Positions 35,472 through 63,204 of a stretch of 64,000 nt of DNA are shown here, one piece after another (position 1 is the stretch's first letter; each line of letters opens with the position of its first letter). The notes below the pieces were generated by a model, which was not told where the DNA came from, made no database searches, and worked only from the letters and a program-made list of their open reading frames with translations. Both the position numbers and the translations under genes were made by a program. Location: positions 392,501-456,500 of the forward strand of contig JAODUP010000353.1 in NCBI GenBank assembly GCA_025642065.1, given 5' to 3'. This DNA comes from Paralvinella palmiformis. Its lineage: Eukaryota > Annelida > Polychaeta > Terebellida > Alvinellidae.

Positions 35472-36556
35472 GTGGTAGTCGTAGCTGTAGTAGTAGTTGT
35501 TGTTGTAGTAGTAATAGTAGTTGTTGTAGTGGTAGTTGTAGTAGTAGTTGTTGTAATAGTTGTTGTTGTAGTGGTAGTAGCTGTAGTAGTAGTTGTTGTA
35601 GTAGTAGTTGTTCTAGTAGTAGTAGCTGTTGTAGTAGTTGTTCTAGTAGTAGTTGTTCGAGTAGTAGTAGCTGTTGTAGTAGTTGTTGTAGTAGTAGCTG
35701 TTCTAGTAGTAGTAGCTGTTGTAGTAGTTGTTGTAGTAGTAGCTGTTGTAGTAGTAGTTGCTGTTGTAATAGTTGTTGTTGTAGTGGTAGTAGTAGCTGT
35801 AGTAGTAGTTGTTGTTGTAGTAGTAATAGTAGTTGTTGTAGTGGTAGTTGTTGTAGCAGTAGTAGTTGTTGTAATAGTTGTTGTTGTAGTGGTAGTAGCT
35901 GTAGTAGTAGTTGTTGTAGTAGTAGTTGTTCTAGTAGTAGTAGCTGTTGTAGTAGTTGTTCTAGTAGTAGTTGTTCTAGTAGTAGTAGCTGTTGTAGTAG
36001 TTGTTGTAGTAGTAGTTGTTCTAGTAGTAGTAGCTGTTGTAGTAGTTGTTGTAGTAGTAGCTGTTGTAGTAGTAGTTGCTGTTGTAATAGTTGTTGTTGT
36101 AGTGGTAGTAGTAGCTGTAGTAGTAGTTGTTGTTGTAGTAGTAATAGTAGTTGTTGTAGTGGTAGTTGTTGTAGTAGTAGTAGTTGTTGTAATAGTTGTT
36201 GTTGTAGTGGTAGTCGTAGCTGTAGTAGTAGTTGTTGTTGTAGTAGTAATAGTAGTTGTTGTAGTGGTGGTTGTTGTAGTAGCAGTAGTTGTTGTTGTAA
36301 TAGTTGTTGCTGTAGTGGTAGTAGTAGCTGTAGTAGTAGTTGTTATAGTAGTTGTTGTTGTAATAGTTGTTGTTGTAGTAGTAATAGTAGTTGTTGTAGT
36401 AGTAGTTGTTCTAGTAGTAGTAGCTGTTGTAGTAGTAGTTGCTGTTGTAATAATTGTTGTTGTAGTGGTAGTGGTAGCTGTAGTAGTAGCTGTAGTAGTT
36501 GTTGTTGTAGTAGTTGTTGTTGTAGTAGTAGTTGTTATAGTAGTAGCAGTAGTGCA
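35472..36556. repeat. GTN trinucleotide array, 1.1 kb
   Basis: Almost every triplet is GTA, GTT or GTG, with scattered GCT, ATA, CTA and a single CGA. It therefore reads as a 360-residue Val/Ala/Ile/Leu frame, which is a by-product. The pattern of variant triplets recurs over some hundreds of bases, showing a higher-order repeat. Confidence 0.95.
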
Positions 36557-37010
36557 GAAAGTTCATTACGCATTTTAAAAACAGACTCCATTAATTCAAT
36601 ATTAATATACTTTTTTTTTAATTTCCTCTGATAACATCAATTTCGAAGAAGAAGGAGGAGGAATGTTAATGGTCAAATATAGATTTACTTTGAAGATTAC
36701 TTGTGTAGTATTTCTGTACTAACCAGCCTTTTGTGTACTTTCTGATAATTAACCATCCTAGCTGTCGGCTTTATCAGGACAACCTTATCAGATTTACCCC
36801 GTATTTATGTTGTATTGAAGTATTATTTTTGTACAAGAACACGTAATTATCATAAATGCTTTCACGCCATATATATTAAAGTAATGTAAACGTGTCCTTC
36901 GTGTCAATAATACGACATCAAATTCTGCCGTATTAACTGAATGTGACATATATCCTTTATATGTGAACTACTTTACTAAATATATCCAATTTTGGCTGAA
37001 AATAATCGGT

Positions 37011-39956: not shown

Positions 39957-40017
39957 ATGTCTGTACAGAAGTTGTTAGTATTCTTCGCATTTGCGTTTCT
40001 AGTCAGCACCGCCTCCG
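39957..40017 (+). CDS. Lectin/WSC gene exon 1: signal peptide
   Basis: Encodes MSVQKLLVFFAFAFLVSTAS, a classical secretory signal: a Lys at residue 5, a Leu/Phe/Ala core and small residues before the cut. The donor is G|GTAAGT at 40018, leaving one base (phase 1) that joins exon 2 to make Gly21. The open frame continues upstream without an ATG, so 39957 is the start. Intron 1 is the longest, 6846 bp. Confidence 0.75.
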
Positions 40018-43000
40018 GTAAGTTTATGATCACTAACTGGTTTAGCCCAAACTTACGCTATCTAATTGTTTGCCGTTGTCTTGTATGTATATATATATAT
40101 ATATATATATATGCCCATGTTGGTTTCTTGTATTAACGTGTATTATCCCGAAAATCGTTCATTATAAGCCCAGTTCGTGTATAACTCGGCGTCCCGTAAG
40201 ATTTTATCTACCCAGATAAATGATTAGGTTTCGTTTATTTATAGATTTGTTTTATTATTATTCCACGTTTTGTGTCGATCCTACTTCGACCTGTAATAAT
40301 GTCGTATTCTGCATTCTTCCCGAGACATCATTAAGCATCGATTAGCGTTATTAGCTATCCAGCTAAATGAAATAAGTTTTATTTGTGTTCCAAGATGTAG
40401 TATGTTCTAATAATGTGGTGTACTTAAGTCTGACGTAGTATAAGAATGTAAAAATACCCCATCGGGTTATTCACCTTTATAAAGGTAACACCATTTTGTC
40501 AGTGTCCCTTGATGTATACAGTCAACAGAAGGTTTGACCCAGTTGTTAAATGTTATTTATTTATTACGTCAGTCTGCTAATTCCAGAACATTTCCAATAA
40601 GTGCCAATAATTAATAAATCAACCAATTCTCGGTACAAATATTCAGCAGATTGGAATTACTAGTTCTGTTTCCGTATTCACGTTATATTACATAACCCGC
40701 AACCCCTCCCCGCATGTACAGGTACGAGCACAAACAAGTTAGCCAACTGCATGGGATTATAACGTTTGAAATTGGCCGCCTCGAAGACAATGGAACGAAT
40801 GCATATTATGTTTGTTTTTTTAGCAAGGGGGCGTATCCACGACCCAAATGGTAGTACGTTAGCCAATGAACTAATTACACGTGGATTCATATCTTGACCT
40901 AGTTATGTCTGAAGGATGTGTCATCTTTGGTTTCGCCCCGTTCACTTTAGAGGGTGCTCGTCCAATGTAGTACACGAGTGTACGTCAAACGGTCACATTT
41001 CACTCGCACCTTAATTGTCTAATGTACAGCCCGCATCACGTCTTGGAGCTACAATCTCTTTGTTTCAATCCGTCATATTCACCTTTCATGGACAAATCCA
41101 ACTTTCGGCGGACCATCTAATAATTTATTGACGACACTTTATTGAAATGATTTTGTTCCCTGATCGGGTATGAAGCTTGTACGTTGAGAATGGTGTGGCA
41201 TTGTTTAATATTGAACAACGACAAATCCTGCCGTTGACATCTCGGTCTAGAGTAGCAAGAGGGACTATCATAATGTACGTATCAGCTGACAGATGGGGTT
41301 CATTACTGATGCCTTCTAGACTTACGATACCGTTAGACCAATGTTAATACAGAGAAAGTCGGCATCTCGTTGGAATATGATTTATTTACAGACTCTTATT
41401 GTTTGAATTGTTAATGACCAAACTAATAACATTTAGTGTTATTGATTGGCTTTCTAGACGTCTGGAGTATATTTTCTGCCTCAGAGTTTTCTCTTACGAC
41501 ACCAAAATGGACTAATTGATACCTACTGTTAACCGTCTTGACATCGAGCCATTAAACAGTTTTTGTACGTCTCTGTTTCTCTCACATGAACATCTTACAG
41601 TTTTGAAAGTCTTACACGGAATACGTCAAGCGTGCTCAACCGGTGCCACCCTTATAAAGATACCATCCTATGGCGGGATAGAGCCAGGACGTTATTTGGT
41701 TCTGTGAATGTTTCATCCTTCAGAAAAAAAAAAAGATGACGATGATTGACGCTTTACGGCCACTTTTGCGTACGCGGTAGGCTAAATGGGCCGAGCGACA
41801 TTCAAAGGTAATGGAGCGAGGTCAAAGATGAAACACCCTTCAGATATGTCCTCGTCGATATTCGAACTCGGGGTGGTAGTGATCTGCGGTCCAACGCGCT
41901 ACCAAACTAGACCACGAGGCGCCCTCCTTCAGAAAAAAACGAAACCTCGGTCTTGTCATTTCATCAACCACCACCCCCCCCCGTAATACGTTCTAGGCAT
42001 AATCAACATCAATGCTAAACAAACTAATCCAAGCTAACCTGGACTCCCAACTGACTCATCCATCCATCCCAACTGACTTCACCAAATTATATCGTGTACA
42101 ATAATCCGTGTTCACCTCAAAACATAGAATCGTTTCTACAATTAGTCTATCCGTATTGATAATTAGTATTTCTCCGGTATATAATGTAAACAATTTTATG
42201 TTTTAAACCCTGCATTGCTGAATCTAATACGTAAACACCACGACAAGGAAATTAACCACATCCAGGACATGCTACATCCAGGACATGCTACATCCTGGTG
42301 TTACATTTGTTCTTTAGTCCGTAGAGCTATGATAAACCGGCTGTATGTATGAATGACTAATGCGACGTAAAACTAACCGAAAATAGAACAGAATACAGTG
42401 AAAACTCCTTTGGTTTAGGGATAAAGTCGACGGGAGTTCCAAGTGATCCGGAACTCGTTCACCGTCAATTGGAGATAGTGCTAGTACAGGAAGCGCATCG
42501 TTAAGACGTTACAAAGGTTTTCTTACCGTAAACGATGAGATAGAATGAACTCTAAATGTTGGCCGATGTTTCATCCTACAATATATGCCTATACCTAGTT
42601 CATAGAACTAACAATATATCGGAAATCACAGTTAACAGTATTGAAGTAGACTTACCAACGTTAACTGTATACAGACTCGTGTCTTGTTGAGGTTTTGGTA
42701 CCTTGTTTTTTTTTGTCCCGTTGATAGAACGGATATCAAACCAGTCAAGCGGAACATGAGGAATACTGTTGTCAACTTTTTATCTTTTGATTACAAAATG
42801 GAGCTCTTTTGGTCAGATATTTGGTGTACATTTAGTGATTGTAATTGAAGGTTATCGACAATTGCGTCCACGGATAACCTCCTATAGTGTATACCTTATG
42901 TTGACATTATGTGCTAAACAAATAGTCAAAAAATATACACATATAGCTTGCTGTTGTGTGTCTGTGTATGTGATAGTATGTATTTAGCACAAACAAGTTC

Positions 43001-44912
43001 AGGTGTAATAACTTGTGATGTTTAGTGTATACATAACAATGGCACACCTCGTCGGTTATCTCTGGTCTAGTGTAAATATTTACATGTTTAAAACATGCAG
43101 TACATTTGAGATATTTATTAGTATAATTTCGCAATCTTCTGATTCCTTTTTGTTAAAAGATTTTATGATTCTGAAACGTCCACTTGTCCAGTTATTGAGC
43201 CTAAACCGTCGTCATATAACTCATTATAATAGCGTTGACTGTAAAGTCTGTCTCCGTAAAAAGATTCGTTCAGTTTTGTTTACAAAGAAATTAATTACAT
43301 CGAAATGATAACAAACAAAACAAAAAATCGGTAAAAGTCGGTGAACTCTCAATTAATAACTTATTCCCGTTAAAGTCTTTCTTGTATATCATGTACACTC
43401 GTCCTTATTCCAGTTAAAGTTTTTCTTGTATATCATACACACTTGTATTTATTCGTGATTAAGCATTTCTTGTATCGTGACCATTTTCTTACGGCTTAGC
43501 CACAACTATTTAAATTTCTATTTTTATTCACAATGACGTCATACCGAGATATACGAATTAGACACCAGACTGTTCACCTTGTTTCTAGTTGTCACGACGA
43601 CTGTTTGTGAAGATAACTAGATGCGATCAGTCATATAGTGTGACGGAGTGGTTTATAGCGAGACTTGTTAGCTTTGACTGGTTTGTTAATTTAGAAGTAA
43701 AGATATGCATATCCATCAGCTGCATTTAGCCACCCAAACTAATAATAGGTTAATACGGACCCCGTAATTTAATAAAGAAGCCATATACGGGTATCAGGAA
43801 ATAATACGATGCTAAGTCAATATTAGGTGGGGTCAAGGGTGGTGATATATTAAGTCTTCGCTTCCGGGTTTTTTTGGGGGCGATGTTTCCTGTTTGACAA
43901 ATTAGTGTAAATATTACTATGTTAACATAGTATATGTAATATGTGTGCCCACTTACGCACACAGGCTGGTGTACACATGCACGCACACACACACACACAC
44001 ACGCCCTATAGTTGCTTGGACTCGTACCTGCATTCAATCAGTTTCGTTTACGGCCTTTATCATGAGATCAATCCGCGTGGTGACAAAAAAGCGACAAAGG
44101 GTCGTCGAATGTGGCCCTCGGAGTAACTTATAATTGAAATGTACCAGAATAACAAACTCCGTCGCTGTTACCCGAGACCGGTTCAGATTGAACTTGGTGT
44201 TATTGTATACTAGAGAACCGAATGCCAAGAATCTGGTTGTCGCACGAGATACTTAGCTACGCCATATCAGTTTATTTGTGGTGTGAATCTTATCTTTGTC
44301 TTTGTTTTGGAATGAGGTCCCTTTATAGATCTAATGGAGTAAAATAGTTAGCCTCAATGTAAACAACGATAATAATATTAAAGGAGGCTAATTAATCCTA
44401 GGTTTTGTTTTTATTTTGTCAACTTGGTCACGTGGTGTTGTTGTTATTATTGAAACTGGTTGAAATCAGCCAATTTAACGACTAAAGAGTGTGCCTAATA
44501 AGAGATGTTATCTTCTCAGTTGATTAACATATAAAGTACTTCAGACTCCCAACACAGGTGTTTATTATTCCAATTAATGATAGTATCATTCACGCACTGA
44601 AGCACACACACACACACCTGTGGTGTTGAAATGTTTTGGTGTATAGGTTACTTGTGAAATTATGACGTTAAAGTTACTATCTTGTATATGCACTAACTAA
44701 TCACTGAATTATAGATATGGACACGTCGTTTACTGCCAGCTGTGGTGTCAGAAGATGTTTTATGTGCTTCCACTTTCTGTGCGTAGCTTACGTAAAAACT
44801 CTTCCCCTGCGGGCGTAACAAATTTGTCATACGAAAAGCGGATTAGCCGGAACCCACACACTGATGGGTGTGTTTTATGTATGTCTCTCTCCCCCTCTCT
44901 CTCTCATGCACA

Positions 44913-44952
<40 letters not shown>

Positions 44953-45138
44953 TGTAGGTGTATGTATGTTTAGGTTATATGTAGATTTGTTATTCATGAA
45001 TTGATGGATCCAAGATTTCAGGGATGTTGATGGTTCTGGGCCAGTGTCACCATATATACGTATCATAAAACACACAACCGCGGAAAGTAGCCTTAACTTA
45101 GGAATTTATTTAATATAAGATATTTCAAAATAATTTAT

Positions 45139-45169
<31 letters not shown>

Positions 45170-48100
45170 TTTGATGACATTTAAAAGGTTTACAAATTTT
45201 ACAATGTAATCCGGAAGAGGATGCATCTAATACTTGACTTCCATATGCCAACGGGTCAGATGTATTAACATAAGAAGCTTAGTTAGACACACACCTAACG
45301 AGTCAGTTTAGCATCATAATCCAGGTATTATTAAGTGGTAATACCTTTCAGTACATTGCTCTATACGGTAACTCAATCTGTGCCAAATATCTTTGATTTC
45401 TAGGAATGTTTTTATTTCACGTTGTAGCAATTATTCATGTTTAAGTCGGTGTTGAGGATTAGTTATTCAGGATAAGTAGCCAAATATTCACGGAATTGAC
45501 ACCAGCTGGCATTTTGTGTTGATGTCTGGTATTTAATACACTATAACTTTGGTTTCACATCGGTTAAACATACACCTGCCTGTACACCTGTCTGTTCGCC
45601 TGCGGTTGCTCGTTCGTTTAAGTGGAGGCTTCTCTTGTAGCGTAGCGGTTAAAACATTGAGTTATAAACGCTCGGGTTCTCGCATCGAACGCGGCTTATG
45701 CCTGTGCTTGTGGAATGTTTATCTGGCATGTCGTCCTATATTCATATACCCCAGTTGTGACCAATGCCGAGATAAAAAAAAACCGAAGTAACAAACCGAT
45801 CGTTTAAATTACAAATGTCTGTATAGTTAATCAATTAATTAGAAATATACCATTTAATTTAATAAATGTGGTTTAAATGAAAAAGATGATTATTTAATCT
45901 TGTAATACGTAATAATCAGAGATAAAATACGTTTGTGTATGACATCACCAGAGACACAAATATGACATATTTTAGGATACTGCGTGGTGTAATCATCTAA
46001 TAATCTTAGTTTCCTAAAGATAGTTTTGTTTAAAATTGTCATTTATATGTTTGTTTCGTCATCAATAATATTAGTCATTGTTTAAATTGTTTTTCATAAT
46101 TTATCATAAACCTGTTTATGTTACTCAGTATATCTCATAAAGCGCTGTCGTATAAGACGAGATGTGTGGTCTAGCTTGTAATACTACGCGGTGCCGCTTG
46201 TTCGATTATATACACATGCCATCCGTGCTTTTTAAGTAGATGTTTAAACGATTTGTAGCGCATCATGGATACCAATCTCATTTCTGATTCTGTTCTACTC
46301 GTTTATTATGCATTGTATGGAAAAATCTTGTATTGTAAAAATGAATAGCTGATCCATAGACGTTGTAATACTAGAAGAAACATTTAGGATGACATACGCT
46401 TATTTGTACGATAAAAAATGAACGTACGTCAAACCTCACACCAGTCAGACTTCTACGACGGCGTGAATTCTTCCAGTTAAAGCAATTGTACACAATAGTA
46501 ATTCAAAAGTAGATGTGTTTGAGCAAAGAAGTTTTACTTCAACTTTCTGACTCTAGATCAATTGGTAATATATACTGTGATTTCTCATTCTCATGACTAA
46601 CGATTGGAATATCAGAACCTACCCCGAAGGATCACCTCGGTTTAGAAAATGAAATAAACCAACACAACACGATCTAAGGTTTTCTATAACAGAGTTGTTA
46701 TAGCGCTGCGCTGCTAACCTCTAGATTGTGGGGTCTGATCCAACTCGTATTCGTGTTAGTGTGATATGTTTCCTTGGTTTTGTCTGATGTTCTTTTCTAG
46801 ATGTCACAATTAGAGAAGCATCTTCATATATCTATAATAATGCTATTTGGTTTAATTATCCAGGAGAAGCCGACTGTCCAGTTAAATTTGATGTCTATGT
46901 ACCAAGTACCAGAACCTGCTATGCCGTGGTCAGGGAGTTTACTAGTACATTCACAGAAGCCAGAGAGTAAGTAGTTATGTTAAGTTTACACTGAATGAAC
47001 TCTCTTTAGGTAAGAATCTCTATATGTTAATTTATTTACAGCACAATGAGGAATTAAACAGCAACAAGAGTTTATTGATAAATATTTTGATAACAATTTT
47101 AATTTGTGTACAGTCGTTGACCAATTGATAATTTATACAAAGCTGATCGAACATCCGCATGCACACCTGTGTGCATGGAAACATGCCTGTGCAGTGGCTG
47201 GCATGCATCCACTAATGAATATACAGACACAGGCACGTAAGCACACATGCATACACAAAGCGAGCAGATGTGTATGTGATGCGTACCTATCGAACAAATT
47301 AAAATATAAAACCTGAATAAATTTATGCAAAACTAAAAAACTAAATTAACATAATTTATTTTGAGAAACCTCCTTTTAAACGTATAAGAATATTGCCATG
47401 CTAATTACCCAGAATTACCTGTCAGAAAGGGTCCCTGGTGTCATTAAGTTCACATAGATTAGCACATTATTATATAATTCTGGCAATTAAAGAAGTTCTT
47501 ATCTGAACAAAATACTCTTTTTGGGGCTCCATGAAGGAGATTTTAGTTCTGAGAATTTCCCAAAACAGGTGATACTACCTGCGCTCATAGTAGTGGTGAT
47601 AGTAGTAGTAGTAGTAGTTGTTGTTGATAGTAACAGCAGACATATGTTGCTGTAGCAGATATGCTACTGTCAGGCTACAGAGTGCCACCATTGCTTGTTC
47701 TTAGTTGCAGCTGTTGCAAACAACCAACGCAATATTTAAAATAATATTCGGAAAGAAATTCAGCCAACAAATCTATAATTAATGCCTTCGATATATTGTT
47801 ACTAAATTCATGTTGATATATTGCGTCATTATCCAGGTGGTGCCAGAATCAAGCGACGTTCTACGGATACTCCACTCCGGATCTCGCTACAGTCGATACA
47901 CAAGACGTCCAAGAAAAACTGAAATCCGCCTTATCCGGATCACAAGTTGAAAGACTTTGGATTGGACTAACTGAATCCTTTACGGATTGGATTTGGGTTC
48001 CCAGTGAGTATTTCAGAGATGATTTGTTTATGGATATACTTGTTTACATTCTGTGTTTAAATGGTGTTTATTCTAAGCGCCATCTTCTCCTATCTAATGC

Positions 48101-48905
48101 TTATTTGTATAGTATTTTTAGCCAATCAAATTTCTAGATTTTCTATGCTGCTTTTATGGTCAGTCATCTCATACATACTCGGTTTAATATTATTATTTTA
48201 TTACGGACAGTATGAGCATGTATATAATTAATGATTCCTCCTCTTACCCCCCCCCCCAACCCCTCCATCACTTGTAGCTGCTAAAGCGCTTCGTCCGCAG
48301 GGCTGTTTCAATCTGGCCAGCTTGTCTCCAAACAGTCTAAAGATTAACATGAATGGGCAACTAGTCGACGTTACCAACACCAAATGTCAGGAAATTTGTC
48401 AACGAAATGGCTACACATACGCCGGAGTTTATATGATTGAAGTGAGTATCCCATAGAATAAATTAGACCATATCGTAACATAAACTGATGTTGTTTACAA
48501 AATATCGGGTTGTTCATTAGAAGTTCACATTTATTACTTTCAGCGGTTGCTATCTACGACGTGGTGTGAATATATTTGGATAGAACCTTGAACTAATCTC
48601 ATTTTAATGTAGCGTCTCGTCTCATTATTCTAAAATATACTAAGAAGCGATTCTATGTTTGCGTTAGTTGGGAGGGGGGAGGGGGGGGGGTTAGAGCAAA
48701 CAAGTTATTTACATAGTTCAGCATAATAACATAATATAGATTAATAATTAGATGGCTATATATGTACAACAAATGATTATGAATAATGGGATTAACTAAT
48801 ATTAATAATAATAATATTAATATAACAATAGCCTCTTTCAGAATGTATCCTTAATAAGAGGCTCTTTTCAAATACACTGAACATTAAAATTAGATCGAAC
48901 ATAAA

Positions 48906-48949
<44 letters not shown>

Positions 48950-49478
48950 TAAATCATGATAACACATCAGTATTCGTTTAAATTACAGAAAATAAATAAA
49001 TAGGTGGTAGTTATAAGGAAATTTAGCAGACATCGCCTGGACCATTTAATTTATTTCCTGTTTTTTGTTAAGCACAAAACAACAAAATATAATCCCAGCT
49101 ACCTTTAAATATTTCTTAACTCAAAGAAATTATTCATCCCAATAACAGTTTATTACAGCACCATTCTGTAAATCTCCTGTTGACAGTTTGAGCTTTATTC
49201 GTATCTTAATTTGTGGACTATTTTTTCTATAGAGTTGCCTCTCAGATATTTATATTATTGTAGCGAGATTAAGCCATAAACATTCGCAGTTGTAGCTACG
49301 ATTTACATAAGTCACGTTATAATGCTAATAATGAAACTTGAACTTAGTAATTAAAGGTGTGTATATTGTTTCTAACCTGATTAATAAGCAAGAAAATTAC
49401 AATAAAACCTAAAAGCGTTAACATTTTGACTTCTTTAATACAGGAATATAACATATATCCATACAAGGTGAGTTTATG

Positions 49479-49546
<68 letters not shown>

Positions 49547-50323
49547 CCACTTCAATTGTCTACTTTTCAACTTGAACTAGTGCCATGCTGACACTCTCAT
49601 CATCTAAACTCTTGAACTACACAATTTTTTCCTACCAAAGAATGTTTATTTGTTTTTCGCTTTAGGGTCTTTATACACAAATTATTTCTGCTGATGTTTG
49701 CAATATTTGTCACCAGATATTCCCGCGATACACAACTGGCTCAGTCTCGTTTGAGTGCATCCTAAAAGACGAGCTTAGATCCACCTGTTCAAAACAATTA
49801 CCCTTTTTTGTTAGTAATGGTGTCACGAGTTCTCTTTTCTTAAAAGTTGCGCTTTTCCAGAAGACGCGGTTCAGTCATTCGTTTGCCAAATTCTCTTAAT
49901 ACGGCAAATTATTAATCTTCATATTTCATAGCTAATGTTTTGTTATATATATATATTTAATACATATTTCTTCTATGTACTAACGTTTTCTCCGTACAAA
50001 ATTGTCCTCTGACCTGTTTATGCTTTCAGAATTGGTTTACAATCAACCTCATCTTTGTTACGTAATTTTTTTGTAATGATTTCTGATAGTACAGGGGTTA
50101 GCGCGGCTTACCACAAACCTCCAGGATGTGGATTCGAATCTGTCTCGTATCTGTGTTTGTGGGGTGTGCTCACGTTTTGACAGACATCCCTCAATAAACT
50201 CCTTCGTTATCTTTCTTTAAGTTTAGTATTTCATAATCTATAGTTAACCTTCATGATTCACTTTTTAACCTTCAGACATCTGCATGCCTTCTGACCTGTT
50301 ATTCTTACTATATATATACTTAT

Positions 50324-50379
<56 letters not shown>

Positions 50380-53300
50380 TAAATTTTTCAGGAAAATAAC
50401 ATGGATTATATGTAACAAATTCTAGAACTATTATTAATATTTAATTCATTTGTAAACTTGTTAGCCCAAAATGACGCATCATTTCGGCTCCGAAGATATC
50501 AACGCGCAATTTATCAATGTTTCGTCATCTTAATTTTCAGAAGACACCGCAATGTCAGTGCGGTAATGAATTCCAGTGGAAGTTTGAGAACAGCATCCCA
50601 ACAGAATGCGATGCAAGGTGTCCCACAGACCCGAGTGAGAAATGCGGAAACAAAGACAAAATCTTAGTTTATAGAATCGAAGACAGTAAGTCATGTGACA
50701 TATATATCTGAGGGTGATCCTTTTTTTTTTTACTTCGGTTCATCACCATTGGAGGTCCCTTGGCCTACCGTTTGGCCAAAAGTGGCCGTAAAACACAAAT
50801 CATCAGCATCTCGACATACGCCTCGGTTGCGGGTGGCGATCAACTAGATCACTTTCGATACATGTTTAACGCATATTGAAATTCTTTACAAATATTCGCG
50901 TTTGAAACTTCCGTGTAGAATTTTAAAATTGAATACGTATGATCTAAAACTGAATAATATTCTCAAACATATTAAAATCCTTTCATAAATGGGTTTCAGA
51001 CGCATGTCAAAGTTATTTATTTATTTACTTAAATTTATTCATGTTCAGATTGGAAAAAAATGGACAATATTCAAACATTTTTAAAAGTTTAAGGTAATGC
51101 TTACCTTGGTTAAAAGCCGTCACTTGTTTTTATTATAAATTAATGTGTATATGGAACAAGGTTAGTGTAATATAGTTGATATGATCGCGGTTAGTTAATG
51201 ATGTATTTAATATAATCAATACATATATTTAACATTTGCTTATTCAGCTTCAAATACTGACTTGTGGTTGTCGAATGAGCCGAACAATTATGATGGATAT
51301 GCCAAATGTCTGACCTTGACTTCGTGGTCAGCGAGGAAGTGGGATGACCGAAAATGTGGTGAAAGTCAGCAAACAAGTCACATCTGTCAGTATGGTAAGT
51401 TGAGTCATATCTGTCAGTACGGTAAGTTGAGTCATATCTGTCAGTATGGCAAGTCAAGTCACGTCTGTCAGTATGGTAAGTCAAGTCACGTCTGTCAGTA
51501 TGGTAAGTCAAGTCACATCTGTCAGAATGGTAGTCACATGGGAGCGTTGAATCCCAGTCTGAGGCTGGGTGTGTTTTATTTCTTTTCATAAAATTTCCCG
51601 ATTGTTTGCTAAATTGAACTAAACATAATATTAATCATAAACTGCAAACATTTATCATTTGTGTGACTTTACTAGGTTATCAAGGTCAAGATTATAATAG
51701 CTATAATGATGTCGCTAGCTATCAGTAATATTATCTATTGTTGTCCAATCAGATACTCGGTTTTATTACAATTAGTCAGTAAGTGATGTCGATTGATCTT
51801 CCTTCTTGGAGTTATCAACAGAATAAAGCGATGTATACCTCAAGTCGGGGCTGAGTGAACTACTTTTATTCTATACTTGAGTAGAAATAAAAGTAAGCCT
51901 CATCAAAATTACTTGAGTGGATGTAAAGCTAAACTTGTAAAAATCTATTTGAGTAAAAAGTAAACTACTTTCTAAAAGTAATTGAAGTAAAGTATAAGTA
52001 GAAGATCGAATTTATTGTTACGCAAGATATAAGAATTAAATATGCGGTGCACAAGAGTGCACAAAGTTCACTGCGTCCACAGTCAGGTGCTGCCACCTTC
52101 AGTTTATTGCATCCACAGATGTGTGCTGCCACCTTCAGTTTATTGCATCCACAGACGTGTGCTGCCACCTTCAGTTTATTGCATCCACAGACGTGTGCTG
52201 CCACCTTCAGTTCACTGAACTAAGACCTCGTTCAACTTCAGCAAAAGCCGACTCAAAGTTGGTGACACAAATCTGATTAAATATTTAATTACAGTGAATC
52301 TTTGAAAACAGTTCGCTCCGCCTGAAATATTCTATGACAAAGTCGGCCTCCAACAATAGGTTGGTAAAGTTATGACAAGTCTTGAATATCAGTGAGCATC
52401 AGCTGAAACGTGTATACCAAATGTTAGTTTTCTTACAAAACTCGCTTGAATGTCACGCCGTATTGAAATATATTTGTTTACCATAAATTTATCAAAGATC
52501 CTCAAGTTGGTGACATTTCTTCTAATTCTCCCTTAAATCCTAGGCTAAGTTATGACCAAACAAGTAATGAAAATATTGCAAAGTAAATGAAAGTAACGAA
52601 GTAAAAAGTAGCCTTTACCACAAATAAAACTACTTTGTTAGAAGTAAAAAGTAGTTGGTCGAGATCTTACTTCATTACTTCTGGTTACTTTGAAAAAAAC
52701 CCTACTCGAGTAGAGTAATGAAGTAGTTTTACCTCATTACATGACACCCACTGCCTCTAGGTCATGGGCTCAACTTCCTGTTGTTAACCGGGTCAATCTG
52801 ATGTTTTCTTAGAAACTGAATTACCTCAATTAGATCATTGAATTTTTTGTCATTTCTGTCTGCGAAATGTTTCATAAGATTATTCTCATTTCTCTTGGCC
52901 ATATGTCCCTCACTCCACTGGTCAAATCACGGTCACCGGTCAAATCACAGTCACCGGTCAAATGACAGTCATCAGTCAAATGACAGTCATCAGTCAAATG
53001 ACAGTCATCGGTCAAATGACAGTCATCGGTCAAATGACAGTCATCGGTCAAATGACAGTCATCGGTCAAATGACAGTCATCGGTCAAATCACAGTTATCG
53101 GTCAAATCACAGTCACCGATCAAATGACAGTCATCAGTCAAATGACAGTCATCGGTCAAATGACAGTCATCGGTCAAATGACAGTCATCGGTCAAATGAC
53201 AGTCATCGGTCAAATGACAGTCATCGGTCAAATGACAGTCATCGGTCAAATGACAGTCATCGGTCAAATGACAGTCATCGGTCAAATGACAGTCATCGGT

Positions 53301-53903
53301 CAAATGACAGTCATCGGTCAAATGACAGTCATCGGTCAAATCACAGTCACCGATCAAATCACAGTCACCGGTCAAATCATAGTCATCATCAAATCACAGT
53401 CACCGGTCAAATCACAGTCACCGGTCAAATCATAGTCATCATCAAATCACAGTCACCGGTCAAATAACCAGCACCAGTCAAGATCAGAAATATATATCAC
53501 CAACAATAGAAATTGACTTAGTAATTGTCACATCAGTCAGTCATCAATTAGTTGATCTCGTGTTATCTTGTTTTATTATCTTCTCTTCACAGCTAAAGAC
53601 AAGTCACAATGTCGAGGTTACTATTTTGAAAAAACAAGAACATGTTTCAAGACCTTCCAAGGCAGTTCATTATCATGGTTCGATGCCAGAAATCGATGCC
53701 TGATTGATGGCGGTGATCTGGTTGTGATTGATTCTCCGGAGCTGCACAAGTTTGTTATTGAGGTCCCGGATATTAAGGACGAGAACAAACCGACACATTG
53801 GTGGATTGGTGCACAATCCAGCAATTGGACTTGGACTAATGGTGAGGGAAATATGGAAATGTGTGTGTGAGTGAGTGAGTGAGTGAGTGAGTGAGCGAAC
53901 GAG

Positions 53904-53939
<36 letters not shown>

Positions 53940-54222
53940 TTCGGTCAATTCAACTATACACATACCTGTACTCCACATAGTAAATATCTCCATGACCTCA
54001 TTTTACAGGACAGCCACTGTCAGCCTTCACCAACTGGGATGTAAACAATCCATCTAAGCCAAAGGGACATTGTGTTGTGATACACGTCAACTCCGGCGGT
54101 GGTAATAACGCTGATGAAAACAAAAAATACAAATGGGAAGATAACGATTGTAATAGAAACTACAGCTTTATCTGTTCTACAGGTTGGTAAATGTATGGAA
54201 AGGTATCAAATCTAATCTCATA

Positions 54223-54269
<47 letters not shown>

Positions 54270-55563
54270 ATAGAAGTATAGAGCTGGATGGTACTGCAAT
54301 ACAACTTCGTTAAGGGTACCCTGCCCACCTTTTGCTAAATTGGAAAGATTTTATGATTTTTGCAAATTTTTGCAATCCAAAATTCTACTCTCTACAAAAA
54401 ACCCACAACAAAGCAACATAAATTTTAATAGACGATCAAAGAACTAGTCGATCAGTGGACTACTTTCAAGGCCAAAAGGTATATATAGAATCCACCAAAT
54501 CTTGACAAAATATTCGGAGAACATTAAGCTCCCTAGTTTTGAGAAATACCAAATACCACAAAGTGTAATGATAGAATTGAACTTTTAATGTAGCAATCCC
54601 TTCCCATCCCACAAATGATATAAAAGAAAAAATTGTTATTTATTAATTATGAACATGTAGATGTTTGAAATATGGGAAACGATATTTTAGCACGATGCCG
54701 ACTTTTAGATGATTGCGGAACATTGCCACTTTAGATCAATTAGTTTATATCTTCTGTCATTAGATTCATCGTAAGTAATACGTTTAATTTATTGATTCTG
54801 CATAATTTATGATATTTGGGGAAAATAAATTCACTTCCACGTTATTATTTCCTGCGCAACCCAAGTTTATCATAACGTAGTTGAATAGCAGTGCCATCTA
54901 GCGAATTGCGCATGTTTATTTAAGACGTAACCTTGTATTTCTGTTTTATCTGAAACATTTCAAGAATAGTGATGGTATATCTGAATATGTTGATCCATAA
55001 TAATCGATTTGTAAACTATTTAAGATCTTATCATATATACTAATGGGTAAATGATAATTGTTTGTTTACATAATATTTCGATCCTGTTTCACGAGTCCCT
55101 CAAACGGCTGACAGAACTCTTACAAATAATTGGCACCAAAATAAAATCAGTACACTTCTATTCAAAGAAGTGTTATTTTCGCTTTCTGATTTATGCAATT
55201 CGGACTTGATACTGGAATGCAAACTACTTATTGAAATGATTTGGCTTGAAGTTGCTCCATTTTTGAAAACTGGTATTAATTTAACATCGGAGTTGAATCC
55301 CTGTTGAGCGGTCAGTGTTTGTAGAATACTCTAATGACGTGGGCTGGTTTATAATTTGGTTGAAGTACTACATAGAAATGTTTAGATATGCCTTGCACGT
55401 AAGAATAGACTTTGGAAAAAGGGAGAAATCCACCCATAAATGTATGACTACTTGTACACACATATACATGGCTGCATTAATGCAAATACATATTGATGCA
55501 CACGCACGCACGCACACGCACGCATGCACGCACGCACGCACACACACACACACACACACGACA

Positions 55564-55639
<76 letters not shown>

Positions 55640-55736
55640 TCAGTTTAGCCAAATTAAAACTTCCATACTAATCCCATTAGGCGGTCTGATCTTGTGTGAT
55701 ATAACTAGCTGATGGGATTATGTTTCTTGTCAATTA

Positions 55737-55811
<75 letters not shown>

Positions 55812-58091
55812 GTGCATGTGTGTGTGCATGCATGCATACGTGTGTGCGTCTATATCAATATTTACACATATTAATAAGTGCACTAATATTCCTCAATCTA
55901 ATAACCCTTCTACGCTTACTAATATTTGCTTGTAGTAATACTTGTAATTATAATTTAATTATTTTAAGTGAAAAATTTAAAGAAATTTTCCCAAAAGAAA
56001 ACATTTTCTTGGCCAAATCTATTTTATCATATTAAACATTATGCTTTAGTCATGTCTGCTCGAGATACTAAATTCTGCTTTTTCTTGCTCTCTTTCTTGC
56101 GCAACAGCACGATTACCTAAAACTAATACAACCACGTCTACAATATTAACTACAACAATTCCTATAACTGAAACAGCTTCTACAACAACAACAACAACAT
56201 CACCGTGGCCAGATATAAAAACAACAAAATTTGCAAAAACAGAAAAAACAACAAAACCAACTCCGACCAAAACAACTTTCAAAACCACGAAAGCAACAAC
56301 AAGGATTAAGACTGCCGCAGTCGGCAGGGTGGCTGCAGTAACCACAAAGTCTTTGGTTGCGCAGCCGGACAGAAATCCAGGGTGGCCACATAAAAATTAC
56401 AAAGTTACCAGCCCCACATCTTCATCCACAGCTGCCCCACAGGCCCAAACCACCGCAACTCCCGTCCCAACAACCAAGACATCAACCGAAGCACCAACGA
56501 CACCGGAAAAATCATCTCCAGCAACAGTGACCTTGCCAAAACTAACGACAACGGCCGTCAGGATTGGGAATCAGTCCGACATTGGTGAGAGAACATCGGA
56601 GAGCAAGGCTAATATTGTCTTCACGAATGGTAATTATGTTAGCTTTGACTCGTGTATTTGTTAGCTTTGACTCGTGTATTTGTTAGCTTTGACTCGTGTA
56701 TGTTAGCTTTGACTGGTGTATGTTAGCTTTGACTCGTGTATGTTAGCTTTGACTCATGTATTTGTTAGCTTTGACTCGTGTCTATATAGAGTGGTTATTT
56801 CTTAATTAAAATGGAGCCGAATAAATATTTACACTGTGATTGAATTATAGTAAAATTTTACGCTTTCTTTAGTTTAAGAATTATCGCTATTATTAGTCAT
56901 AATAATTAACCTGTTGATTCCGTTTATTTGGCAAATGGTTGTCATGGTGATTCGTGATATACTATTTATGAGATTCGTGTACAGTCGTGACGTGGACGTA
57001 ATTAATATCGTAGAGAGTGTCAGTGGTTTTGACCTCTTATCCCTATTTATTCTGCACATCAACGGCAACGACTGTGCTAATATTACCTGACGTCTATTTT
57101 TTTATTACCAGGTGTAATCGTTGCCATAGTGATAGCAGCAGTAGCTCTACTAGTCGCCTCAGTAAGATTGTTTGTTTATTGTTGCCATCGACGTAGGTCA
57201 CCGTGAGTACATATTCTATCATTTGCGATTTTACTAACGAGGCAGTTTTTTTATCGTCTTTGGAGTAGACCAGTTTGATCATTTTATAAAGATACCACTG
57301 TGTACTTTGTTATTGCTACGAATCTATTTTGATTTATTTGGGGAATTAAAAAAAAATTATAATTTAAATGGACAACTTCCGCGACGCATGCGCAGTCCAC
57401 TTCTGTGATTTGCAGGTCAGTTTTGGGGGATTCACAGAACTATTTCGATCTACAAATTCTTGTAGCAATTTCATTTTTATTAAATATGATGTAGACTTAT
57501 TTTTACCAATAGATAAGATTATTTGTATAGGGAAAGTTGACTTAATTTTTGCCTGAGAAAATGACATCTTCTCGAAAATAAATCATCAAGTTGGGAACTT
57601 TAATAGACAGGTTATCAATATATGAAACGTGTTGTGATCTCCGCGATCTCGCCATTAGCAAAAGAAAGTTTTTATCATGTGGTTCAGCGATCCTGGTGAA
57701 ACGCGACCCGCAAACGGACGTTCGCTAGATGGCGCTGTTGTTGCGAAAATGTCTATTATTTGACTATTTCTAAAAACTGTATTTCAACCATAATTTAAAT
57801 TATCATACTATATCAATAATTCAGTTGTTGCTTCATTTTTTGAGCATTTTTTAAATCGCGGAATAAATATATGGCTCCGTGGTTTAACGGTGGCACATTG
57901 GAACACAGATCACTGCCACCCGAGTTCAAATCTCGGCGTGGGCATATCTGAAAGGCGTTTCATCTTTGACTTCGCTTCATTACGTTTGGAGGTCGCTCGG
58001 CCCACTTAGCCTCCTAACAAATGCACAAAAGTGGCTGTAAAACATCAATTATCACCTTGAAATTCTTATTAATGTTGACTACTATATATAG

Positions 58092-58125
<34 letters not shown>

Positions 58126-59206
58126 AGTATATAGCATAATTATCACAATGACAAGGATTTTCTTCATGTCTAAAAAAGGTCAAAGAATCATCTTTAGACG
58201 AGTACCTTTGTTTTAATTTTAATATTTTAATTTTAATATACAGTTCTGAGGACCGAAGAGGTCTGTCTCCTTAGAAAGCTAAATTATAATAAGTGAGTTG
58301 GTTGTTGGTTGGTTTAATCTTTTACTAGGTAGCTAGTCATCATGCGATATCTGTTATTGTCTATCGATCGTTGTTAGTTCACCTCATCAAAACATTTAAT
58401 TAATATTGTCTCTGAAGTGTTGATGATGTTATAGAAGTAAACCGATTGATGGCTAATTATCTATCAGCTGGTAATGGGCGAGCTATAGCTTGATGGTAAT
58501 CTTTAACTGTAGTTTTTCCTGCTTTTAACTGTATTGCTTAATTCTAATATCAAACAGTTCAATTATTTCGCTTTGCTTTATAACTCTGAAAATAAGCGAA
58601 CCGCAGTTAACCCGACGTTTCTTTTATGACGTAGTTTTCTGTAACCAATAGGTGTTACAACGTCTGATTACACCCGATCGATTGCCTGTCTTTTATAATG
58701 ATATATTTACATCTCTTGATAACGTAACGGTATCGGTTTGCCAATAAAGTGTATTTTCACGCAACATTGTATACAAATCGATAGAATTAATGTAAACAAA
58801 AGAATACAATGTATTTGTGTAAGTTAGAATGACCATACTCCCTAACTAAATTATTAAAGATGATTAACTCATAACGTAATGTTTATTTAAAATTCCATAA
58901 ATAGTTCTTCAATTGTCAGAGGTTGACTTACCATGCAGCGATGAGGGGTTATTTTTAATATGATTGTTCATATATCATTGTGATATAATATCTGCCCTAA
59001 TACTTGTTGTTTGCAGACGTAGTGCCGTGTATAAATCCGAAAATCTAGGATATGTATTCGACGCTCGCGATGAACTGCAAGGAGGTCGTGGGAACAAACC
59101 ACTCGAAGACATTGAAATCGCAAACGAGACTTACGCCAAGGTGAACAAACGAAGCAGTCCGGATCCCGTATCCGCGGACAACAACAGCGCCGCTTTTGGT
59201 TATTGA
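39957..59206 (+). CDS. Transmembrane C-type lectin / WSC receptor, whole gene (11 coding exons)
   Basis: Exons inferred at 39957-40017, 46864-46966, 47837-48003, 48278-48441, 50541-50685, 51248-51394, 53593-53841, 54009-54182, 56108-56629, 57112-57202 and 59017-59206. Joined they make 2013 nt, encoding 670 residues plus TGA; every intron is GT-AG and every phase matches. Order: signal peptide 1-20; CTLD1 first half 25-111; WSC domain about 118-213; CTLD1 second half 214-262; CTLD2 269-403; Thr/Ser-rich stalk 404-577; transmembrane helix about 578-602 ending in CCHRRR; cytoplasmic tail to 670. Each CTLD has the six cysteines of the long form (25, 39, 57, 234, 250, 260; and 269, 280, 298, 367, 393, 401). 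CTLD and WSC families bind glycans, so a plasma-membrane pattern-recognition or adhesion receptor is the likely role; the ligand is unknown. I do not recognise a named orthologue. The internal exons are secure; the first exon rests on a good signal peptide, matching phase and a TATA box. Confidence 0.85.
41735..41924 (-). mobile_element. SINE family A with 15-bp target duplication, in lectin/WSC intron 1
   Basis: Same body as the other A copies, including CTAAATGGGCCGAGCGAC on the plus strand and box B rc GATATTCGAACTC. TCCTTCAGAAAAAAA occurs at 41716-41730 and 41925-41939, a perfect target-site duplication. It is antisense to the gene. Confidence 0.88.
45625..45790 (+). mobile_element. tRNA-like SINE in lectin/WSC intron 1
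   Basis: CTTGTAGCGTAGCGGTTAAA and CGGGTTCTCGCATCGAACGC resemble boxes A and B, followed by a body ending in an A-rich run (GATAAAAAAAAACCGAAG). It is more diverged than families A-C. Confidence 0.45.
46864..46966 (+). CDS. Lectin/WSC gene exon 2: start of CTLD1
   Basis: Acceptor TTATCCAG and donor GA|GTAAGT (phase 2). Encodes residues 21-55, beginning GEADCPVKFDVYV. It holds the extra amino-terminal cysteine pair of long-form CTLDs (Cys25 and Cys39, the latter in RTCY) and the FTEA helix that precedes the first canonical cysteine in exon 3. Confidence 0.85.
47837..48003 (+). CDS. Lectin/WSC gene exon 3: CTLD1 first half with WIGL motif
   Basis: Acceptor TATCCAG, donor CCC A|GTGAGT (phase 1). 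Encodes EWCQNQATFYG, a LATVDTQD strand-helix and RLWIGLTESFTDWIWVP. WIGL is the most conserved core motif of the CTLD family. The sequence stops right after the W-x-W strand, where a normal CTLD would run into its long loop; the gene instead goes into WSC exons. Confidence 0.9.
48278..48441 (+). CDS. Lectin/WSC gene exon 4: WSC domain first half
   Basis: Follows a C-rich polypyrimidine tract and TTGTAG acceptor; donor GAA|GTGAGT (phase 0). Encodes QGCFN, a Leu-rich middle, then KCQEICQRNGYTYAGVY. The G-C-F/Y start and the C-x3-C-x3-GYxYAGV block match the WSC domain (yeast Wsc proteins, polycystin-1, Kremen), a predicted carbohydrate-binding module. Confidence 0.88.
49474..49542. repeat. (TA)n microsatellite in intron 4, about 68 bp
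   Basis: The longest TA run in the window. Another of about 50 bp follows at 50326-50376 in the same intron, shortly before exon 5. Confidence 0.95.
50085..50205 (+). mobile_element. tRNA-like SINE in lectin/WSC intron 4
   Basis: AGTACAGGGGTTAGCGCGGC and GGATGTGGATTCGAATCTGT give a box A / box B pair, then GTATCTGTGTTTGTGGGGTG. A similar but poorer head lies at about 46690-46760. Confidence 0.5.
50541..50685 (+). CDS. Lectin/WSC gene exon 5: WSC domain second half
   Basis: Acceptor AATTTTCAG, donor GAC A|GTAAGT (phase 1). Encodes PQCQCGNEFQWK, then ECDARCPTDPSEKCGNKDK and ILVYRIED. QCxCGN, Cx3C and the closing CGx(n)VY are the second half of a WSC domain. Exons 4 and 5 together have phase-1 ends on both sides, forming a symmetric module. 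Confidence 0.88.
50741..50810 (+). mobile_element. SINE family A 3' fragment in lectin/WSC intron 5
   Basis: CATTGGAGGTCCCTTGGCCT, then AAAAGTGGCCGTAAAACACA, equals the last part of family A. It is truncated on its 5' side. Confidence 0.6.
51248..51394 (+). CDS. Lectin/WSC gene exon 6: CTLD1 second half, EPN motif
   Basis: Acceptor TTATTCAG; first donor TAT G|GTAAGT (phase 1). Encodes DLWLSNEPNNYDGYAKC, then RKWDDRKCGES and SHICQY. EPN (residues 224-226) is the calcium-site motif linked in vertebrate and invertebrate CTLDs to mannose-type sugars; WDD replaces the usual WND. Cys234, Cys250 and Cys260 complete the disulphide set begun in exons 2-3. The exon end lies inside a 27-bp tandem repeat that offers further in-frame donors, so the real 3' end may vary. 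Confidence 0.85.
51385..51535. repeat. 27-bp tandem repeat spanning the exon 6 / intron 6 boundary
   Basis: About six units of AGTCATATCTGTCAGTATGG plus TAAGTTG. The unit contains the last codons of exon 6 (SHICQY) and the donor. Donor-like sites fall at 51395, 51422, 51449 (GC type, GCAAGT), 51476, 51503 and 51530 (weaker, GTAGTC), all in the same phase. Confidence 0.92.
51844..52760. mobile_element. Possible non-autonomous hAT-like element in intron 6
   Basis: The left end has many AAGTA / ACTTGAGTAGAAATAAAAGT motifs and the right end has the same in reverse (TACTCGAGTAGAGTAATGAA, GAAGTAAAAAGTAGT). Sub-terminal repeats of AGTAAAAGTA type are usual in hAT elements of animals. No transposase is present. 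Exact ends and the target duplication are not clear to me. Confidence 0.4.
52090..52215. repeat. 36-bp tandem repeat inside the hAT-like element, about 3.5 copies
   Basis: The unit is CTGCCACCTTCAGTTTATTG plus CATCCACAGACGTGTG, starting at 52090, 52126, 52162 and 52198; nearly identical. Confidence 0.92.
52918..53475. repeat. 18-bp minisatellite in intron 6, about 30 copies
   Basis: The unit is CGGTCAAATGACAGTCAT, with variants CACAGTCAC at both ends of the array. Since it has no stop codon in several frames, long repeat ORFs appear on both strands (NDSHRS, MTVIGQ, DDCHLT); none is credible as a gene. Confidence 0.95.
53593..53841 (+). CDS. Lectin/WSC gene exon 7: CTLD2 first half
   Basis: Acceptor CTCTTCACAG, donor AAT G|GTGAGG (phase 1). 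Encodes SQCRGYYFEKTRTC, SWFDARNRC, a DLVVIDSPEL strand-helix and THWWIGAQSSNWTWTN. WIG and W-x-W define the CTLD core. The exon ends at the same structural point and in the same phase as exon 3 in CTLD1, so the two lectin domains share an ancestral intron. Confidence 0.9.
53866..53939. repeat. (GTGA)n(GT)n run in the short intron 7
   Basis: Seven GTGA-type units, then about 15 GT pairs. It begins about 25 bases after the exon 7 donor and fills much of the 167-bp intron. Confidence 0.95.
54009..54182 (+). CDS. Lectin/WSC gene exon 8: CTLD2 second half, NNP in place of EPN
   Basis: Acceptor TTTTACAG, donor ACA G|GTTGGT (phase 1). Encodes GQPLSAFTNWDVNNPSKPKG, then HCVVIHV, KWEDNDCNRN and SFICST. 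The calcium-site tripeptide is NNP rather than EPN or QPD, and there is a Gly/Asn-rich loop (residues 374-380). Sugar binding may be altered or lost in this domain. A second GTAAAT donor four bases downstream would break the frame and is not chosen. Confidence 0.88.
54222..54268. repeat. (TA)n microsatellite in intron 8
   Basis: About 46 bp of TA pairs that start some 40 bases after the exon 8 donor. Confidence 0.95.
55498..55808. repeat. Compound (CACG)n(CA)n and (CT)n(TA)n microsatellites in intron 8
   Basis: A CA/CACG run covers 55498-55635 and a CT run followed by a TA run covers 55738-55808. They are separated by about 100 bases of normal sequence. Confidence 0.95.
56108..56629 (+). CDS. 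Lectin/WSC gene exon 9: Thr/Ser-rich mucin-like stalk
   Basis: Acceptor CGCAACAG, donor AAT G|GTAATT (phase 1). One 522-nt exon encodes residues 404-577, very rich in Thr, Ser, Pro, Lys and Ala, with blocks such as TTTSTILTTT and TETASTTTTTT. Such stalks are usually heavily O-glycosylated and hold the binding domains away from the membrane. An NQS sequon lies near the end. A GWPHKNY patch marks the middle. Confidence 0.82.
56636..56785. repeat. 20-24-bp tandem repeat after the exon 9 donor
   Basis: About seven units of GTTAGCTTTGACTCGTGTAT with or without TT. The array starts about six bases into intron 9. Confidence 0.9.
57112..57202 (+). CDS. Lectin/WSC gene exon 10: transmembrane helix
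   Basis: Acceptor TTATTACCAG, donor CC|GTGAGT (phase 2). Encodes GVIVAIVIAAVALLVASV, then RLFVYCCHRRRS. A hydrophobic helix of about 20-24 residues followed by two cysteines (possible palmitoylation) and a basic stop-transfer cluster gives type I topology, with the lectin domains outside. Confidence 0.88.
57369..57765. repeat. Dispersed repeat copy in lectin/WSC intron 10
   Basis: Related to 21740-22610: shared blocks include TTCTTGTAGCAATTTCATTT, AAAATAAATCATCAAGTTGG, AATAGACAGGTTATCAATAT and CGCTAGATGGCGCTGTTG. Internal deletions make it shorter. No protein is encoded. Confidence 0.6.
57871..58058 (+). mobile_element. SINE family A in lectin/WSC intron 10
   Basis: Plus strand: ATGGCTCCGTGGTTTAACGG (box A), GAGTTCAAATCTCGGCGTGG (box B), then TCATTACGTTTGGAGGTCGC and AAGTGGCTGTAAAACATCAA. 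No clear target duplication. Confidence 0.85.
59017..59206 (+). CDS. Lectin/WSC gene exon 11: cytoplasmic tail and stop
   Basis: Acceptor TGTTTGCAG; TGA at 59204-59206. Encodes residues 608-670, including SAVYKSENLGYVFDARDEL, IEIANETYAKVNK and the end NNSAAFGY. Four tyrosines (613, 620, 647, 670) sit in acidic surroundings and could be phosphorylation or endocytic sites; none is a strict ITIM or ITAM. The sequence before 59017 in this frame is intronic. Confidence 0.85.
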
Positions 59207-61409: not shown

Positions 61410-61539
61410 TCATTTTCAGATAGATGTGTGACTTAAATAAATAATTGATATTACAGTTATAATTGTAGAATATACTACTTTTAGCTGTAAATGGAGTGAT
61501 TTATATTCTGTGATCAATAAATTTTAATTTTTTTACGTC

Positions 61540-62710
61540 TGATTGAATACTGAGTCTTGAGCACTTTTAGTGTGAGTCATTGCTAATACCTTCCCGAGAA
61601 CGCGAGAACCCAACGTCGGATTGAATAATGAGTCTTGAGCACTTTTAGTGTGAGTCATTGCTAATACCTTCCCGAGAACGCGAGAACCCAACGTCGGATT
61701 GAATAATGAGTCTTGAGCACTTTTAGTGTGAGTCATTGCTAATACCTTCCCGAGAACCCGAGAACCCAACGTCGGATTGAATAATGAGTCTTGAGCACTT
61801 TTAGTGTGAGTCATTGATAATACCTTCCCGAGAACCAGAGAACCCAACGTCGGGTTGAATAATGAGTCTTGAGCACTTTTAGTGTGAGTCATTGCTAATA
61901 CCTTCCCGAGAACCCGAGAACCCAACGTCGGATTGAATAATGAGTCTTGAGCACTTTTAGTGTGAGTCATTGATAATACCTTCCCGAGAACGCGAGAACC
62001 CAACGTCGTATTGAATAATGAGTCTTGAGCACTTTTAGTGTGAGTCATTGATAATACCTTCCCGAGAACGCGAGAACCCAACGTCGGGTTGAATAATGAG
62101 TCTTGAGCACTTTTAGTGTGAGTCATTGCTAATACCTTCCCGAGAACGCGAGAACCCAACGTCGGATTGAAGAATGAGTCTTGAGCATTTTTAGTGTGAG
62201 TCATTGCTAATACCTTCCCGAGAACCAGAGAACCCAACGTCGGGTTGAATAATGAGTCTTGAGCACTTTTAGTGTGAGTCATTGCTAATACCTTCCCGAG
62301 AACCCGAGAACCCAACGTCGGATTGAATAATGAGTCTTGAGCACTTTTAGTGTGAGTCATTGCTAATACCTTCCCGAGAACGCGAGAACCCAACGTCGTA
62401 TTGAATAATGAGTCTTGAGCAGTTTTAGTGTGAGTCATTGCTAATACCTTCCCGAGAACCCGAGAACCCAACGTCGGATTGAATAATGAGTCTTGAGCAC
62501 TTTTAGTGTGAGTCATTGCTAATACCTTCCCGAGAACCCGAGAACCCAACGTCGGATTGAATAATGAGTCTTGAGCACTTTTAGTGTGAGTCATTGCTAA
62601 TACCTTCCCGAGAACGCGAGAACCCAACGTCGGATTGAAGAATGAGTCTTGAGCACTTTTACTGTGAGTCATTGCTAATACCTTCCCGAGAACCCGAGAA
62701 CCTAACGGGC
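61540..62710. repeat. 78-bp minisatellite, about 15 copies
   Basis: The unit contains ATGAGTCTTGAGCACTTTTA, GTGAGTCATTGCTAATACCT and TCCCGAGAACSCGAGAACCC. On the minus strand it stays open for 397 codons as a 26-residue repeat (GSRVLGKVLAMTHTKSAQDS...). Variants are few (CGCG/CCCG/CCAG; GCTAAT/GATAAT). Confidence 0.95.
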
Positions 62711-63204
62711 ATTCGTTGTTTATCAATCTTTCATTTACGGTAAGCGCCGTTGTATGTATTTAGATGTATAATTGCTCATTTAATAACGATAAGGAATGGT
62801 CTTGACTCGGCTTTGATCAATTTCTCCAGTGACTTAATGGAAATGCCGTTTCCTGAGAAATATTCCTACAACACTGTCACAGAACAGAACAATGGAGTGA
62901 AAAGAACGTTACCTTTATTTACATTGTGAAGAAAGATGTAGACATATCGGACTACAGTTCTCCTGTTCTCATTTCGTCACACAACCAGTGGTCTACCGTT
63001 TACCGGGCTAACTTTGTCTACAGACCTTTCAATATCTAATATGCCACCTTTACGACTGAGCCATCGTGACGCTTTCGCCGTGGAATAAATATATGTATTA
63101 CGGGAGTGTTAGAGCTGTCTATCCGGTTGGTGGCGCTCTGAACGTCTCTTGCGGTACTTAAAGGTAGGGGATGTTTCAAGGTCAACCATCTGTAAATGAC
63201 AGGC

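Follow-up and report, generated by a model that had tools for sequence, protein, structure and literature searches.

The window analyzed here, 64,000 nucleotides at positions 392501-456500 of contig C1870 in the 594-Mb Paralvinella palmiformis assembly, carries a gene of 11 exons on the forward strand (39957 to 59206) in which a complete WSC domain with eight cysteines lies between the two halves of a C-type lectin domain (CTLD). This nesting, with the first CTLD (CTLD1) encoded by exons 2-3 and 6 and the WSC by exons 4-5, is confirmed at the level of sequence. The product is probably a single-pass receptor in which the long loop of CTLD1, from W.W to EPN, is interrupted by one complete WSC, and in which CTLD1 likely acts as a clamp that displays it. 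The layout occurs with every piece in at least six genes on four contigs, and in part in a seventh (gene G). Support for the nesting is strong because the paralogues repeat the layout; the CTLD1 halves of the window gene are weak matches on their own. The original prediction for this stretch had placed a CTLD front in exons 2-3, a whole WSC in exons 4-5, and the resumed CTLD in exon 6, and its coordinates proved exact, with PF01822 and the paralogues in agreement. It had taken the host for a mollusc, but P. palmiformis is an alvinellid annelid of hydrothermal vents.

A WSC domain within a C-type lectin domain

CTLD1 begins in exon 2 (46864..46966, forward strand, phase 1 to 2) with Cys25 and Cys39, and its front half continues in exon 3 (47837..48003, forward), which encodes Cys57, LWIGL, and WIW and ends with VP in phase 1. 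The N-terminal part of the WSC is encoded by exon 4 (48278..48441, forward, phase 1 to 0) and the C-terminal part by exon 5 (50541..50685, forward, phase 0 to 1), and together they match PF01822 at E 2.4e-10 (residues 119-201, profile positions 3-81 of 82). The back half of CTLD1 follows in exon 6 (51248..51394, forward, phase 1 to 1), including EPNNYDGY, Cys234, WDD, Cys250, and Cys260. CTLD1 and the WSC thus comprise residues 21-262 of the protein. The eight WSC cysteines are flanked by Cys25, 39, and 57 on one side and Cys234, 250, and 260 on the other, which bears out the expectation that the six CTLD cysteines are split 3+3 around the insert.

Joined without the WSC, the window CTLD1 matched the macrophage mannose receptor in a phmmer search of the PDB (7.1e-5, query residues 23-137 of 138). 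Exons 2-3 alone matched Lectin_C over profile positions 3-58 of 107 at E 0.0027, below the curated cut-off, and the back half alone had no Pfam match. A public P. palmiformis protein, LSH36_353g04005 (P0001), is 100% identical to the window protein over residues 21-263 and includes exons 4-5; it is deposited as a hypothetical protein.

A paralogous family in the same genome

A second public protein from the P. palmiformis genome, LSH36_399g00001 (P0002), matched at 4.8e-17 in a protein search and has the same domain order from end to end. Its gene, on contig C1929, contains all nested pieces with border phases 1/0/1/1. Two-member profiles (window and P0002) found the tandem genes A and B on contig C666, and in both of these, as in gene F on contig C1828, the order and phases are those of the window gene. 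Gene E, the neighbor of the P0002 gene on C1929, has all nested pieces in order. Gene G (C2094) has the WSC and the CTLD1 back half, and its inner WSC border and WSC/back border agree with the family phases; the 3 kb preceding its WSC yielded no CTLD1 front. Gene E spans L053 3722-8147 and adjoins the P0002 gene. Genes A and B (L009 and L015) are arranged head to tail, and the last CTLD2 exon of A is about 635 bp from the first CTLD1 exon of B. This gap holds a Thr-rich segment as well as a short hydrophobic tail that includes a stop, and no signal-peptide exon for B was found in it.

The nested region of the six genes shares 23-47% identity. The six-gene alignment has 14 cysteine columns (6 CTLD and 8 WSC), of which 13 are kept in all six genes and one in five: all eight WSC columns and five of the CTLD1 columns are invariant, and the remaining CTLD1 column is kept in 5/6. 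The border phases (front/WSC 1, inside WSC 0, WSC/back 1, after back 1) are the same in five of the six genes, namely the window gene, A, B, P0002, and F. When joined without the WSC, CTLD1 of A, B, and P0002 matched Lectin_C at 5.8e-13, 2.1e-12, and 1.5e-15, covering profile positions 2-106, 7-106, and 2-106 of 107, respectively. The WSC domains of A and B matched Pfam at 1.6e-18 and 1.2e-18, over positions 1-82 and 2-82 of 82.

Profiles built from these three paralogues recognize the window gene in each part. The joined CTLD1 profile scored the window CTLD1 at 58.4 bits (best of 1000 shuffles, 9.0), the front hidden Markov model scored 22.3 bits (best of 1000 shuffles, 10.0), and the back-half model scored 36.4 bits (best of 1000 shuffles, 10.9). 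Leave-one-out profiles of the front, WSC, back, and joined CTLD1 for the window gene, P0002, A, and B were above the best of 1000 shuffles in 16 of 16 cases, and on the shuffled window the best profile matches reached only 5.2 to 7.3 bits. Searched against the PDB, the four-gene profile of the joined CTLD1 (window, P0002, A, and B) matched macrophage mannose receptor chain 7jub at 1.4e-20, and the four-gene WSC profile matched Kremen1 at 1.3e-11 and yeast Wsc1 (7pz2) at 1.2e-7.

Several observations weigh against the nested reading. The joined CTLD1 of the window gene is not reported by Pfam even at E ≤ 10, the WSC of P0002 escapes Pfam, and an AlphaFold2 model of P0001 and P0002, made from a two-row alignment, is unusable, with a mean predicted local distance difference test score of 31.5. 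Gene E has a Tyr in place of one CTLD1 cysteine, and the acceptor of its second WSC exon could not be reconciled with the family phase, because of which gene E may be degenerate or degenerating. The first cysteine column aligned across all six genes only in the six-gene alignment, as a four-gene alignment set A and B apart. The public models may also be mere predictions.

The silence of Pfam on the window CTLD1 and the unusable AlphaFold2 model leave room for a linear string in which the flanks are two broken CTLD halves that do not pair, with no domain inside another. However, the joined CTLD1 of each of the three paralogues forms a nearly whole Lectin_C, and the 3+3 cysteine split is kept at the above identities in five of the six genes, the sixth lacking one cysteine. 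Such a string of unpaired halves is very unlikely. An artefact, in which a CTLD intron contains WSC exons that belong to another gene or were placed there by misassembly, has in its favor the TA microsatellites of the 2.1-kb intron that separates exons 4 and 5, since assemblies can break down at such sites. Yet the order and strand are repeated at six places on four contigs, with matching phases in five of the six genes, and the window contains no N; we give an artefact almost no weight.

Gene model and predicted protein

The 11 exons of the nested gene have AG/GT borders throughout and consistent phases, and form a single open frame for 670 residues and a stop. The domain order is signal peptide, CTLD1 front, WSC, CTLD1 back, a second CTLD (CTLD2), Ser/Thr-rich stalk, transmembrane helix, and tail. 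A single-pass (type I) cell-surface receptor is predicted, with the signal peptide and transmembrane helix called from hydrophobicity and sequence alone. Exon 1 (39957..40017, forward) encodes the predicted signal peptide MSVQKLLVFFAFAFLVSTAS and ends in phase 1; among ATG exons with a phase-1 donor in the upstream stretch scanned it is the most hydrophobic, and P0001 has an identical start. The front half of CTLD2 is encoded by exon 7 (53593..53841, forward), which ends with WTWTNG in phase 1 at the site matching the WSC entry in CTLD1, and the back half by exon 8 (54009..54182, forward). The Ser/Thr-rich stalk in exon 9 (56108..56629, forward), which starts later in the public model, and the predicted transmembrane helix GVIVAIVIAAVALLVASVRLFVY in exon 10 (57112..57202, forward) were read from the sequence. 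Exon 11 (59017..59206, forward) encodes the predicted cytoplasmic tail and the stop codon, with the same C-terminus as P0001.

The P0001 model has 696 residues and contains four extra 9-residue units after exon 6, which come from a 27-bp tandem array; it also differs from the 11-exon model where exon 9 begins and again between exons 10 and 11. The array is a minisatellite of 6.1 copies (51374-51536) that repeats the end of exon 6 and the splice donor in frame. The P0001 model uses a later copy, which gives four SHICQYGK-like 9-residue units with extra cysteines. The intron that separates exon 6 from exon 7 contains a second minisatellite, with 30 copies of 18 bp (52920-53465).

Exons 4-5 have phase-1 introns on either side, and a transcript lacking both exons would keep the full open frame, such that the WSC could be an optional cassette, alternatively spliced to give both plain CTLD-CTLD and nested forms. 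The insert is nevertheless present in both public models (P0001 and P0002), and we regard an optional cassette, which would be compatible with a nested receptor, as possible but improbable.

Origin of the insertion

CTLD2 (exons 7-8) matched Lectin_C at 2.8e-17, and its best PDB chain is FcRY (7.4e-19). The WSC exon pair is a symmetric 1-1 module between phase-1 introns, and in all five genes mapped (window, A, B, P0002, and F, the last by donor only) a phase-1 intron also splits CTLD2 at the corresponding W.W..G site. The simplest account is that the long loop of a CTLD was split by a phase-1 intron beforehand and that a symmetric 1-1 WSC module was inserted there, and this origin is likely because CTLD2 keeps a phase-1 intron at the matching site. 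A fitting donor at that site was also found in the non-nested CTLD of locus L014.

Other observations fit less well with a single entry into an existing intron. At the matching site, the non-nested locus L013 lacks an intron, and the CTLD1 exon of loci L010 and L011 continues a few codons past that point. In a tree of twelve CTLDs, from which genes E, F, and G were absent, two label changes are required for the nested CTLD1s, and 28% of bootstrap trees show a single origin. Loci L010 and L011 (contig C2202, at about 231 kb and 247 kb) are near-alike copies of a non-nested two-CTLD gene in opposite orientation, about 16 kb apart. No WSC was found at E ≤ 0.05 in the CTLD loci L010, L011, L013, and L014.

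Predicted fold and ligand recognition

By analogy with the known fold, CTLD1 would close around the WSC through the pairs Cys57-Cys260, Cys234-Cys250, and Cys25-Cys39, and the WSC would fold on its own with the disulfides 120-188, 147-170, 151-172, and 192-200 of the Wsc1/Kremen type. The sequence suggests that CTLD1 likely serves as a clamp displaying the WSC; it would mainly hold the WSC out at the ligand end, and its own calcium-sugar site would have decayed. With CTLD2, the mucin-like stalk, and the tail, the protein would be a recognition receptor, perhaps for glycans or glycoproteins of microbial or host origin.

The canonical long-loop sugar site consists of EPN, a Glu eight residues on (Glu176 in mincle), and WND (PMC7618208). 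The original prediction had set an EPN calcium site beside the WSC: EPN is indeed found at residues 224-226, but Ala232 stands at the Glu position (+8) and WDD (245-247) replaces WND. Measured against that description, the window CTLD1 lacks a complete site II (EPN/QPD, Glu at +8, and WND). Among the seven genes, the long-loop motif is EPN in two (window and G), QPN in three (A, B, and F), and QTN in two (P0002 and E), and the Trp of WND is kept in the window gene only (1/7). A functional calcium-sugar site in CTLD1 is doubtful because of Ala232, WDD, and the varied motif across the family. EPN and WDD could alternatively belong to a calcium-dependent, mannose-type lectin with the WSC as an extra glycan-binding module beside the EPN site. 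This is rather unlikely, as Glu is replaced by Ala232, WND by WDD, and EPN by QPN or QTN in five of the seven genes.

The nearest solved CTLDs for both CTLD1 and CTLD2 are those of the macrophage mannose receptor and its tandem-CTLD relatives (PLA2R, FcRY, and DEC-205). These are membrane receptors with tandem CTLDs, and to our knowledge none has a WSC or a whole domain within a CTLD. Kremen-1 and Wsc1 carry the WSC in a linear chain. Polycystin-1 has the WSC and the CTLD side by side, and its family is characterized by PKD repeats, REJ/GPS, and many transmembrane helices. By contrast, the window protein has one predicted transmembrane helix and no PKD, REJ, or GPS match (Pfam, E ≤ 1), and membership in the polycystin-1 family was rejected on the lack of such matches. 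The extracellular WSC and CTLD of polycystin-1 are both reported to bind Wnts (PMC9672506). The eight-cysteine WSC resembles those of Kremen-1 and yeast Wsc1, and its spacing is near that of Wsc1, with a largest neighbor shift of 5 (PMC9024836). Sugar binding is not established for every WSC: the Wsc1 paper states that direct glycan binding had not been shown for the yeast sensors, and that SiWsc3, with three WSC domains, binds beta-1,3-glucan (PMC9024836). In bivalves, the WSC also figures among the additional domains of CTLD proteins specific to that group (PMC10140915). The expectation that the layout was undescribed is consistent with the searches made: no nested CTLD-WSC was found in the open-licence literature searched, mostly at listing level, and the protein is deposited as hypothetical.

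Extent of the family and other features of the window

P0001, P0002, and a fungal WSC protein (P0003) were among the matches listed in the protein-database searches. No nested relative outside P. palmiformis was among the matches listed from one protein database; paralogues A, B, E, F, and G were also unlisted, and for this reason the nested layout may also occur in other species. A genome search with the WSC of gene B gave 12 matches, which did not include the WSC of the window gene, P0002, or E, and a search with the window back half gave 5 matches, which did not include B, E, F, or G. The family count is therefore a floor, because the genome searches missed known members and also listed matches that are outside the count. 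These include WSC sites on C2184, C1615, C2008, C427, C2508, and C1964, back-half sites on C2020 and C149, and a front-like site on C1881. The 19.8 kb on each side of the window held no more than two weak matches to the back half (E 0.23 and 0.33). Locus L012 was rejected as a family member because it is a short tandem array of a similar kind.

Elsewhere in the window, a reverse-transcriptase fragment is located at 9204-9713, where the first 150 residues match RVT_1 at 9.6e-6, below the curated cut-off. On both strands, a simple repeat tract at 35362-36628 has several frames that stay open beyond 300 codons. A long tandem array at 61536-62759 contains a 408-codon open frame on the minus strand, which is most likely a repeat artefact.

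Implications for the C-type lectin fold

Differences in specificity within the C-type lectin fold come largely from the long loop. If the nested reading is correct, the long loop tolerates the insertion of a whole domain, and the insertion has been kept through the deep divergence of a paralogous family. The window gene and its paralogues would then provide a record of exon shuffling within a domain, not between domains, and a clear one because the phase-1 intron persists, WSC-free, in CTLD2 of the same proteins. More tentatively, and with somewhat less than even confidence, the long loop of C-type lectins may be a port for whole domains, in which a WSC dropped into a phase-1 intron is presented by a disulfide clamp at the ligand face of diversified surface receptors. 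The nested arrangement, if borne out, would offer a natural template for two-module binders.

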